Part shown: positions 34,360 through 47,728 of the stretch, piece by piece
How the letters are laid out: each line of letters starts with the position of its first letter
Position numbering within the stretch: the first letter of the stretch is position 1
From: Candidatus Methanoperedens sp. BLZ2
Lineage (GTDB): Archaea; Halobacteriota; Methanosarcinia; Methanosarcinales; Methanoperedenaceae
Length of the DNA: 48,535 nucleotides
Assembly (NCBI RefSeq): GCF_002487355.1
Contig: NZ_NTMG01000044.1
Location: 1 to 48,535, forward strand
Direction of reading: 5' to 3'
Notes under the pieces: generated by a model
What the model saw: the letters and a program-made list of their open reading frames with translations, nothing else
Databases searched by the model: none
Told to the model about the DNA's origin: nothing
Made by a program: the position numbers and the translations under genes

Positions 34360-34419
34360 GTAGTGGGCCGAGAAAATTTTTTTTTCGATCTACACACCAT
34401 AAATCCCACAGCCCACTAC
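34360..34419 (+). ncRNA. candidate small hairpin RNA, copy C
   Basis: GTAGTGGGC (34360-34368) and GCCCACTAC (34411-34419) are a perfect 9-bp inverted repeat. The loop has an AAAATTTTTTTTT tract and then ACACCATAAATCCCACA. The same order (stem, T-tract, ACCATAATCCC-like segment, stem) occurs in copy D, 135 bp downstream, and in copy B. The T-tract is inside the loop, so a simple terminator is unlikely. No reading frame. Confidence 0.62.
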
Positions 34420-34462
34420 CTCCTATTCAGAATAAATGCTTATGTTTACAACAACCGTAAGC

Positions 34463-34492
34463 TATAAATACTATTGTTCGTATATATACGAA
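34463..34492 (+). promoter_or_regulatory. promoter and operator of hairpin RNA copy D
   Basis: TATAAATA (34463-34470), then the perfect 16-bp palindrome TTCGTATATATACGAA (34477-34492). It occupies the space between TATA box and predicted start site, where a bound repressor would block RNA polymerase recruitment. Confidence 0.65.
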
Positions 34493-34496
34493 TCGT

Positions 34497-34549
34497 AGTG
34501 GGCAGAGAAATTTTTTTATACACCACCATAATCCCCCTTTCTGCCCACT
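34497..34549 (+). ncRNA. candidate small hairpin RNA, copy D
   Basis: AGTGGGCAG (34497-34505) pairs with CTGCCCACT (34541-34549), and flanking AGAAA/TTTCT can extend the stem with a bulge. The loop reads T-tract, then ACACCACCATAATCCCCC. It is a diverged tandem copy of the unit at 34328-34419, including promoter. The exposed C-rich segment could pair with purine-rich SD sequences (speculation). Confidence 0.62.
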
Positions 34550-34613
34550 TACTTATCATATTTGGAATGGGAAATATTACCTAACTGATTTTTTCAAGGA
34601 TACCTTTTTAAAT

Positions 34614-34650
34614 CCGTTACGCGAATCAATCCAAAAAATCGCGTTACGCA
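34614..34650. repeat. CGTTACGC iteron pair, 27-bp period
   Basis: CGTTACGC begins at 34615 and again at 34642, exactly 27 bp apart. The second is followed by AATT. The motif and period match the five-unit array at 36598-36732. Located about 90 bp upstream of the membrane-protein gene at 34735. Confidence 0.65.
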
Positions 34651-34734: not shown

Positions 34735-35049
34735 ATGACGAAAAAGGGACTGATCTATATGAATACAAATGAAATATTCAAGAATAAAAAATTAGCATAC
34801 GGTTTTACCTCATTAATAGGGCTGGCTTTTATGAGTTTTGTGGCTGGCTGGGTATTCCTTATCCCGATAGCAACAATGGCCTTCCTTTTATATGGTTATA
34901 CTGTTTATTCGAAAGACCAAAAGCACAGGATCAGTGTGAATTATAAACCGAGTGAAGCAATGAAAGCGATTGCTCGCAGGGAAATGGAACTCAATAAAGA
35001 GAAAGACAGATTGATGTATGAACAAAGCCAGGGCGAAATAAAATGGTAA
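34735..35049 (+). CDS. small membrane protein with charged C-terminal helix
   Basis: 104 residues: two hydrophobic segments (YGFTSLIGLAFMSFVAGW; VFLIPIATMAFLLYGY) and a 50-residue charged helix (SEAMKAIARREMELNKEKDR). The start may be the ATG at 34735 or at 34759 (MNTNEIFKNK). The CGTTACGC pair is upstream. It is convergent with the recombinase gene. No family recognised. Confidence 0.6.
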   Translation: MTKKGLIYMNTNEIFKNKKLAYGFTSLIGLAFMSFVAGWVFLIPIATMAFLLYGYTVYSKDQKHRISVNYKPSEAMKAIARREMELNKEKDRLMYEQSQGEIKW

Positions 35050-35092: not shown

Positions 35093-35929
35093 TCACAGCA
35101 TATCCAGCGGACTTTTGATCTTCTTTATCTCATCACTTGAGACCTGAGTATATATCTGCGTAGTCTGCAAATTCGAATGCCCAAGGAGCTTCTGGATTTT
35201 TCGTATGTCCACCCCGTTCTCAAGAAGATGTGTGGCAAAAGAATGCCGGAGCGTGTGCACATGCACGGGTTTATCGATCCCTGCTCGCTCGGCGGAGATT
35301 TTGATCGCATGTTGAATACCGCTTGATGACATTTTCCTGCCTTTTATCGAAAAAATATAACCTCTTCCTCCTGCATTTGTTTTTTCGATATAGTCGAGAA
35401 GATCCTTCTTGAATATTTCAGAGATAATAAATATCCTGTCCTTTGCGCCTTTTCCAAGCCGCACCCAGCCTGTTCCATCATTCAGGTCAAGGTCGCAGTA
35501 TTGCAGGTTGATGCATTCCGAAAGCCGAAGGCCCGTGGAATAAAGGAGTTCAATTAAGAGCCTGTGCTTTATGTTTTCAGTATTATCGATGAGGTCTTTT
35601 ATCTCCTTATGGGTCAGCACCACAGGCAGCTTTTTTGATGCTTTTGGCGTTTTTATCAAAGACATGTTTTTTCCAAGCATATCTGTATAGAAAAATTTTA
35701 GTGATGCTTTTATGAGTGCGATCGAGGAATTTGACAGAGAATCGTCTGATATCTTGGAGGCCAAGAACTCCTTTATATCATCATCCTTTATCTCTTCGAT
35801 ATCCTTTTCAATAAATTCAAGGAATTTGCGATTATAGAAAAGATACATCTTTGATGTCTGTTTTGAAAAGCCACGGAGTTTTAACTCAGTCTCAAGCTTT
35901 TTCAATTCTGGTGGGAGTTCAACTGGCAT
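35093..35929 (-). CDS. xerA: tyrosine recombinase, XerA-like
   Basis: 278 residues: N-terminal SAM-like core-binding domain, C-terminal catalytic domain with the full residue set: R in STGLRLSECI, K in LGKGAKDRIF, H-x-x-R in HVHTLRHSFATH, H in KLLGHSNLQT and nucleophile Y in QIYTQVS. The length and compact form suit archaeal XerA, which resolves chromosome dimers at dif. An integrase of a small mobile element is the alternative, given iterons on both sides and a tRNA gene 0.9 kb away. No dif-like site was recognised. Confidence 0.88.
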   Translation of the reverse strand: MPVELPPELKKLETELKLRGFSKQTSKMYLFYNRKFLEFIEKDIEEIKDDDIKEFLASKISDDSLSNSSIALIKASLKFFYTDMLGKNMSLIKTPKASKKLPVVLTHKEIKDLIDNTENIKHRLLIELLYSTGLRLSECINLQYCDLDLNDGTGWVRLGKGAKDRIFIISEIFKKDLLDYIEKTNAGGRGYIFSIKGRKMSSSGIQHAIKISAERAGIDKPVHVHTLRHSFATHLLENGVDIRKIQKLLGHSNLQTTQIYTQVSSDEIKKIKSPLDML

Positions 35930-36085
35930 AACAGTTTATTTTTATGTATTTAAGGTATATAAAAACTCCGTCTAATTTTCCGAGGTTGCTGAAAAAGAAT
36001 CGCAGAAACTAAAAAAAATCGATTTTGCTTAGAAAAAAACTTTAGTATTCCAGTTGCCAATATGTATTTATTTGATTTAGTCATT

Positions 36086-36391
36086 ATGAAAAAATATCAT
36101 GAAAGGACTCGACCAGACCGCATAAAAAGGGGGGCGGTGCTTCGTGGATTGGAGGCAGATGTTTTTATCAATCAACCATTCTCTGGATCGGAAGCTCATC
36201 ATATCGATAAAAAAACTGTTGTTTATATACCTAACTGGCTTCATTCTTCGTTACCCCATCAACATAAAAAACCTGAAACTATGGTTATAATCAATAAGTG
36301 GTCAGACCGATGGGTTCAGTTGGAAGAAGCTCACAAAGATGAAACGCTAAAAACAAAATTATTAAAATTTTATGAGATGTTTTTAGAATGA
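36086..36391 (+). CDS. small HNH-like protein
   Basis: 101 residues from the ATG at 36086 (MKKYHERTRPDRIKRG); an ATG at 36062 is in frame. The centre FSGSEAHHIDKKTVVYIPNW resembles the EAHHI-D core of HNH nucleases, with a later His in HSSLPHQHKK. No zinc Cys pairs. It may be a minimal HNH nuclease or its remnant; nuclease activity is unproven. It lies between recombinase and iterons. Confidence 0.55.
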   Translation: MKKYHERTRPDRIKRGAVLRGLEADVFINQPFSGSEAHHIDKKTVVYIPNWLHSSLPHQHKKPETMVIINKWSDRWVQLEEAHKDETLKTKLLKFYEMFLE

Positions 36392-36597
36392 TTTATAACA
36401 AAAAAAGTACGTATAATCTACCTTATATGTACTTTTTGACAAAATGCGGCGGAAAAAACCATAGATTTCTGTTGTCAAATTCATTTTTTTTTGAAAATCT
36501 TGTTTTGGGATTGCCAAGGTATGAAATGTAAGACTTGCTATAGAACTATCGCCATAAATTAAAATAAGAGGTTTAAATAAAAATATTGTATTCACTT

Positions 36598-36732
36598 CCC
36601 GTAACGGAAATTTGTTGAGTAAATCCCGTAACGGTATTTATACAATGAAATCCAGTTACGGAATTTAACCTGCACAATTGCGTAACGGGAATTTATTAAA
36701 TACATTGCGTAACGGAATTTATGTGCTTTAAT
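36598..36732. repeat. five 27-bp CGTAACGG iterons
   Basis: Five units start at 36598, 36625, 36652, 36679 and 36706, exactly 27 bp apart. Each begins with a core such as CCCGTAACGG, TGCGTAACGG or CCAGTTACGG followed by an AATTT-like run and about ten variable AT-rich bases. A regular array with a conserved core is typical of iterons bound by an initiator or repressor. They are too short and too continuous to be CRISPR repeats and spacers. Confidence 0.85.
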
Positions 36733-45263: not shown

Positions 45264-45557
45264 TCAGACGACGACAAGACACATCGGTTCTTCGCAGCAG
45301 ATAACTTCACCTGCGCTATCTGAAGCGCAGACCATTTCACATCCGCAAACCTCACAATAATATGTTTGTCCTGATTCTGCTTTGGTGGCTTTCTTTGTTC
45401 TCACTTTCCTTTTTGGTTTTGCAGTTCCTGTTTCGGATTTCCTTGCTGTTGTTTTTGCAGCTTCTGTTTCGGATTTCCTTGCTGTTATTTTACCTCTTTC
45501 ACTCCACCACGAAGACGCGGGCGATGTGGTAGGTTTTGATGCAGTTTCTTTAGCCAT
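45264..45557 (-). CDS. desulforedoxin-like protein with basic N-terminal tail
   Basis: 97 residues. The last 35 (TYYCEVCGCEMVCASDSAGE, then VICCEEPM) follow the desulforedoxin/rubredoxin-like C-x2-C ... C-C-x2-P-M metal site. The first 60 are low-complexity Lys/Thr/Ala with two copies of TARKSET, from a tandem DNA duplication. GGAGG precedes the ATG. The fusion of a tail, perhaps nucleic-acid-binding, to an Fe-S4 knuckle is unusual; function unknown. Confidence 0.7.
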   Translation of the reverse strand: MAKETASKPTTSPASSWWSERGKITARKSETEAAKTTARKSETGTAKPKRKVRTKKATKAESGQTYYCEVCGCEMVCASDSAGEVICCEEPMCLVVV

Positions 45558-47100: not shown

Positions 47101-47607
47101 TCAGATATTCTCATTCTGGTATACGCCGGAATATCCTTTCCTGACCTCTTCCCCAAGCCTGAAAAACAAAAGCTGCAGAACACGTGCATCTTTTTTTACC
47201 CTGAATCCCTTCTCATTATATACAACAAGAAGGCTCTCGGATCTTCCGCTGTAACCCGCATCCCATACAGCAGTTTCCACGGTCACACCGCAGCGGAGTA
47301 AGCTTGAGCGCGGTTTTGCGATCGCTGCGATATCTTTGGGGATGTTCACGACCTCGTTGAATACGATCTTATAGCTTCCCTGTGGTAAATGCAGCCACCC
47401 TTTCTCATCGAACTCAAGGTTTTTTGTCTGCGGGAGTTTCCTTTCCGAGTTATCAAAAGCGATAAAGCCTGGACCGTCATGAAATTCCACGCGCGCAAGG
47501 GTCAGTTCGACACCGTTGGGCTGGACCTGGATATCCGGGTCGATCATTTTTTCGACAAGGGGGGGCTTTTCATTGATGAGGAAGATCAATTCGTCATGTG
47601 ATAACAT
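47101..47607 (-). CDS. dut: dUTP diphosphatase/dCTP deaminase-family protein
   Basis: 168 residues from MLSHDELIFLINEKPPL. Conserved blocks: QPNGVELTLARVEF, KPRSSLLRCGVTVETAVWDA (substrate and Mg site) and GYSGRSESLLVVYN, with C-terminal QLLFFRL and YSGVYQNENI. Archaeal Dut enzymes of this form belong to the DCD superfamily; hydrolysis of dUTP is most likely, deamination of dCTP less so. An upstream in-frame ATG at 47640 lies within a promoter-like stretch, so I prefer 47607. Confidence 0.88.
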   Translation of the reverse strand: MLSHDELIFLINEKPPLVEKMIDPDIQVQPNGVELTLARVEFHDGPGFIAFDNSERKLPQTKNLEFDEKGWLHLPQGSYKIVFNEVVNIPKDIAAIAKPRSSLLRCGVTVETAVWDAGYSGRSESLLVVYNEKGFRVKKDARVLQLLFFRLGEEVRKGYSGVYQNENI

Positions 47608-47667
47608 AGGTGCAAAATTACAGCGGGAACTGATAAACATTTTGAAAAAAACCGCAAATAAGAGAAT

Positions 47668-47728
47668 ACGTTACGCAATTTTTTGATCCATTTAGCGTTA
47701 CGTAATTTATTCATACATACCGTAACGG
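47668..47728. repeat. three CGTWACG iterons upstream of dut
   Basis: CGTTACGC at 47669, CGTTACGT at 47696 (27 bp on) and CGTAACGG at 47721 (25 bp on), the first two followed by AATTT. Same core and spacing as the arrays at 34614 and 36598. Confidence 0.65.

Follow-up and report, generated by a model that had tools for sequence, protein, structure and literature searches.

The palindrome arrays of the analysed DNA (the window, i.e., all 48,535 nucleotides of the stretch from Candidatus Methanoperedens sp. BLZ2) are located around a dif-like site and the gene of a XerA-type recombinase. With a probability of roughly 0.55, we read this as a XerA/dif locus for chromosome-dimer resolution, whose arrays would be bound by a putative dimeric protein that either controls the synapsis of dif or has an organising role in the region. 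Directly visible are the arrays, their palindromic units, their confinement to one place per genome, a single dif-like site with covarying arms, an intact recombinase and a fixed geometry. From these features we infer protein binding to the arrays and its action on recombination, as well as the activity of XerA on the dif-like site. The key feature, i.e., the dif-like site between array and recombinase, is absent from the earlier note on this DNA.

The 5' array (36598-36716, plus strand), delimited by core matches and the unit consensus, comprises five palindromes in 27-bp register. CGTAACG is found at positions 36600, 36627, 36681 and 36708, whereas the core at 36654-36660 is a degenerate AGTTACG. 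That is, the five-fold register described in the earlier note holds at 36600-36714, with the refinement that four cores are perfect and the third is degenerate. The related sites it had reported at two other loci are also there. A second array of two palindromes (34615 and 34642, 27 bp apart; 34615-34648, minus strand) lies on the opposite side of xer from the 5' array. The third (47669-47727, minus strand) has its cores at 47669, 47696 and 47721, i.e., at distances of 27 and 25 bp, and is found 11.3 kb from dif. It was correctly placed before a gene that had been called dut. The respective gene downstream of the array (47101-47640, minus strand) is rather the dCTP deaminase-like dcd, given its Pfam match to DCD, which overlaps with the dUTPase family.

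Since the core is itself a palindrome, its plus and minus forms differ in the central base only. The window contains 10 CGTWACG sites and 4 pairs of them at 27 bp, compared to a mean of 1.2 sites and zero such pairs in 300 simulated windows (second-order Markov model). Within the whole 3.74-Mb genome, CGTNACG pairs spaced by 24-28 bp are restricted to the three array places, while the reversed control pattern shows zero matches in the same genome. Single CGTWACG cores, by contrast, number 104 in this genome.

Based on 100 arrays with 307 units, the unit consensus is a palindrome of about 19 bp, wAAT.CCGTNACGG.ATTw, with a variable centre. Half-sites that face out of an array at its ends are nearly as conserved as the inward-facing ones, and the unit is therefore the self-contained palindrome itself. 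For the same reason, the 27-bp interval was rejected as a dif-like recombination site of its own. A palindromic unit fits a predicted dimeric DNA-binding protein. Distances between neighbouring units in the first set of loci are mostly 27 bp (119/180), followed by 26 bp (26/180) and 24 bp (12/180).

Next, we consider how the arrays are distributed among genomes. A strict pair pattern matches in 27/34 Methanoperedenaceae genomes, and outside the family it yields three isolated, chance-like pairs among 152 other genomes of the order. When the central base is allowed to vary, four more genomes (G001, G003, G008, G010) join, such that arrays are present in 31/34 family genomes. The array-free genomes (G014, G025, G033) are each 68% complete or less. 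Except where contigs break, the arrays of a genome share one place or lie no more than about 50 kb from it. The array locus is chromosomal, sits among housekeeping genes (in the window tbp, L15e and others, as judged from translations) and is kept at a single place across the family, which argues against the trace of an integrated replicon suggested earlier.

The recombinase (35093-35929, minus strand, 278 aa; Pfam PF00589 and PF13495) has P. abyssi XerA (4a8e, E=1.2e-46) as its best relative in the PDB. Its named relatives come from Candidatus Methanoperedens and other Methanoperedenaceae assemblies. Its catalytic hexad, i.e., R135, K160, H225, R228, H251 and Y260, is invariant in 29 aligned recombinases. 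In relatives, arrays are found on both sides of the gene and the other neighbours differ between species. A small membrane-like ORF convergent with xer (34735-35049, plus strand) is conserved in a subclade. Between dif and xer, the window carries an ORF (36062-36391, plus strand) that had been described as HNH-like; the ORF is present, but a Pfam match is absent. At least two kinds of HNH-type ORFs have repeatedly been inserted at this position, including clear HNH ORFs in four relatives (L040 9229-9624, L045 7748-8104, L046 13431-13772, L053 7430-7783), as if the dif-xer gap were favoured by homing-endonuclease-like genes. One relative (G016; L124 9299-10126) has an additional Xer-like gene of 51% identity; a TTATTTTAATTTAT stretch is found about 90 bp from it, but no palindrome array.

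Another reading of the recombinase, the HNH-like ORF and the nearby tRNA gene is the remnant of an integrated mobile element, with the recombinase as its tyrosine integrase and the tRNA-His gene as its attachment site. We give this hardly any weight: the recombinase is single-copy, is found with 73-96% identity in 29/34 family genomes and goes with the array locus in all but one of them, and its neighbours are housekeeping genes. Furthermore, 94 stretches of a viral collection fit the two-unit pattern, but those fetched show no arrays of at least three units in register, and the AT-rich element discussed below is absent from the viral contigs of this collection. Integron-like cassette arrays were considered as well, since gene content between the arrays varies among family loci, but are not favoured.

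The dif-like site, AGTACGTATAA-TCTACC-TTATATGTACT (36406-36433, no strand assigned), follows an 11-6-11 bp format and is part of an extended inverted repeat (36402-36437). We identified it by its inverted repeat, covariation and single copy. Relatives show perfect or near-perfect 11-bp inverted arms around a 6-bp spacer between array and recombinase, e.g., ACTGCGTATAA-N6-TTATACGCAGT. A 28-base pattern matches in 30/34 family genomes. Of these, 28 show a single match, G011 two and G024 three; weak extra matches occur in G011 and G024 only. The single match sits at the array locus in 27/28 cases. The remaining one (G026) is a chance match elsewhere, and both this genome and G007 carry a dif with one mismatch at the array locus. 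The three genomes without a dif-like site are 68% complete or less. The reversed control pattern matched in 1/34 genomes.

Among 26 distinct sites, the arms are paired to 96.7% with 23 compensated cells, a level reached by 0/500 shuffles, and the 6-bp spacer varies freely while the arms covary. Archaeal dif sites have an 11-6-11 format and a single copy per genome (PMC2958812, PMC8371274). Single copy, format, covarying arms and variable spacer together make up the anatomy of a dif, and the assignment of 36406-36433 is well supported. In many family genomes, the dif centre is found 48-52 bp upstream of the xer start codon. In the window, the HNH-like ORF lies in between and the distance is about 490 bp.

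Besides dif and arrays, nearly all family loci show a conserved AT-rich element, TTTTTATTYAAACCTCTTATTTTAATTTATRGCG..GTTCT (36542-36588 in the window, minus strand; TTTTTATTCAAACCTCTTATTTTAATTTATRGCG in relatives). Its distance to the final palindrome of the array on the dif side is 29-36 bp in all measured loci except one with a degenerate last core, and dif follows after roughly 100-300 bp. Considering 275 units, the palindrome-dif distance has a median of 0.94 kb and 94% are within 6 kb. Most loci have arrays flanking dif on both sides, with the nearest palindrome roughly 150-330 bp from the dif centre; a set distance is seen solely to the AT-rich element. One metagenome-assembled genome (G013) separates the components: here, xer is found on a contig without arrays (C117), while dif, AT-rich element and arrays are together on another (C61). 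The arrays thus stay with dif although xer is elsewhere, i.e., they belong to dif and not to the xer gene. In G010, the recombinase is missing because the contig stops some 140 bases beyond dif. Counting against our main explanation are that the separation seen in G013 comes from a single metagenome-assembled genome, and that one array at p82-ubiD in G004 is about 48 kb from dif.

A further point against it is that some arrays are located at promoters (p82-ubiD, dcd), as would be expected for a simple transcription factor. Two palindromes spaced by 24 bp enclose the TATA box before the small conserved gene p82 and ubiD in most of the relatives examined. This arrangement is classic for repression and looks like promoter occlusion, and the array before dcd is likewise found in relatives. 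The putative array-binding protein thus probably also represses nearby promoters (p82-ubiD, dcd). Taken further, a local transcription factor with few target genes (xer, p82-ubiD, dcd, neighbours of S8e) would use the palindromes as ordinary operators, and their closeness to dif would be a matter of gene order; the dimer-type palindromes of the units fit this view. We consider it unlikely. Arrays are also found 5-13 bp behind the xer stop codon and, at a fixed distance, on the far side of the AT-rich element. Where xer has moved, arrays remain with dif. In addition, it would be unusual for a regulon to stay within about 50 kb of dif despite gene neighbourhoods that vary between species. As for the array-binding protein, p82 is a candidate only; its structure model is poor (pLDDT 46) and it belongs to no Pfam family.

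The earlier note had proposed a replication initiator or a repressor with dispersed sites. Clustered repeats of the protein-binding type with dispersed copies stand, and repressor-like action is likely at some promoters given the palindromes that flank the p82-ubiD TATA box in relatives. Initiation is not supported. ORB motifs with the usual G run are found at 29/30 Orc1 loci and, at a chance-like level, at 1/38 array loci; none is present in the window, and the ORB-flanked Orc1 gene is on contigs other than that of the array locus. A replication origin was thus rejected as the main reading. Likewise, the palindrome units are used in both orientations, i.e., they are not the directional direct repeats of an iteron origin, and no Rep gene is consistently adjacent to the arrays among the family loci compared.

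A more specific variant is a second chromosomal origin, in which iterons next to an AT-rich unwinding element would be bound by a second Cdc6 paralogue. Such an origin would be expected to show spacing of the iteron type and, at a fixed distance, an AT-rich element, as found here. A second Cdc6/Orc1 paralogue (about 370 aa) directly adjoins an array solely in G021 (L048 9618-10724), and in G030 the paralogue shares a contig with the array. In almost all genomes, however, this paralogue is on another contig, and apart from G021 the loci read have no arrays beside it. Together with the ORB distribution, this makes a second origin very unlikely. GC and third-codon-position skew show no switch at the array locus (G001; stretches of 360 kb and 340 kb around dif and Orc1), but they are flat even at Orc1, which served as positive control, and the assemblies are fragmented. 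Upstream of Orc1 in the same genome (L126 8200-8900), a long tandem repeat, ATTATCAGTAGGATTATCTATCAA..., partly masked, is found beside canonical ORBs.

For the main reading, we propose the following mechanism. When sister chromosomes are fused, XerA would recombine the two 28-bp dif copies. A putative dimeric DNA-binding protein would bind each palindrome of about 19 bp, with adjacent dimers packed at a period of 27 bp. Protein and DNA would thereby form a complex to either side of dif that controls the timing of dif synapsis or the choice of copies, or that tethers the sister dif regions. Its role would be similar to that of FtsK with KOPS and matS in bacteria, or of ArgR/ArcA with PepA on the cer and psi sites of plasmids. 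ArgR is also a transcription repressor, and the same array-binding protein would, like ArgR, probably repress nearby genes as well. In its fullest form, this is a dedicated, FtsK-independent control of dimer resolution: the putative protein would coat the arrays on both sides, cooperate with the AT-rich element, license only correctly paired sister dif sites and repress neighbouring promoters. For this complete version, we would give a little under even odds.

Bacterial chromosomes time Xer recombination at dif with FtsK, KOPS and matS, and small plasmids carry ArgR or ArcA sites and use PepA beside their Xer site (PMC11724359). Archaea are without FtsK, and Cortez et al. 2010 suggested that inverted repeats flanking the Thermococcales dif bind a partner (PMC2958812). 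Xer control in archaea without FtsK is a stated open question in the literature (PMC2958812, PMC8371274). The system described here shares with P. abyssi XerA/dif a single Xer recombinase with the catalytic hexad, one 28-bp dif in 11-6-11 format, inverted repeats around dif and the archaeal lack of FtsK (PMC2958812). It differs in that dif is found within the xerA promoter region, while the Thermococcales dif is not next to xerA, and in its up to about 14 bracketing palindromes, mostly at 27 bp, plus the AT-rich element. It is a new form of XerA/dif and not a new kind of machine.

As in the xerA-linked dif of Sulfolobales and in bacterial XerS/difSL and XerH/difH, site and recombinase gene form one module. 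The consulted portions of the respective papers describe no comparable palindrome arrays for these systems, and they give difSL a longer central region than that found here (PMC2958812, PMC5357621). ColE1 cer and pSC101 psi resemble our locus in having regulator sites in a stretch of about 200 bp beside the Xer site and in their FtsK-independent control (PMC11724359). They are, however, sites of small plasmids and not of a chromosome of about 3 Mb, and here arrays flank dif on either side, at distances of up to 11 kb and, in one relative, 48 kb.

MatP/matS of the E. coli Ter region is similar in its concentration of protein-binding sites around dif (PMC11724359). It is also a precedent for a Ter-like fork barrier or centromere-like array, in which the bound protein would stop forks or segregate the region and dif would merely be co-located, as could be the case for arrays that lie on both sides of dif and cluster within a few kb. 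We regard this as clearly unlikely since the palindromic units are without polarity, unlike known fork traps, and no segregation gene consistently adjoins the arrays. The matS sites extend over a wide terminus region, unlike the tandem arrays within a few kb found here, and the palindrome core differs from the 13-bp matS palindrome.

Our literature searches revealed neither a dif site nor such arrays described for Methanoperedenaceae. If the main reading holds, the arrays may show how archaea without the FtsK motor control chromosome-dimer separation at dif. With this locus, a dif site becomes available for a methane-oxidising lineage of environmental importance. Compact and family-wide, it combines dif, recombinase and a precisely spaced repeated site that is usable as bait for the missing partner.

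Finally, two further repeats were observed in the window. One is a 36-bp tandem repeat within a small zinc-finger-like ORF (45413-45491). The other consists of two copies of a candidate small RNA of about 60 nt (34360-34420 and 34495-34554, together 34360-34554, plus strand) next to the array locus, each preceded by a TATA-like box and a palindrome, TTCGYATATATRCGAA, and with a GUAGUGGGCAGA...CACCAUAAUCCC...UCUGCCCACU hairpin. It shows no Rfam match. The family has 23 distinct copies, most of them close to xer or p82 (L034, L037, L051, L055, L060 and others). Both window copies fold far better than shuffled sequences.
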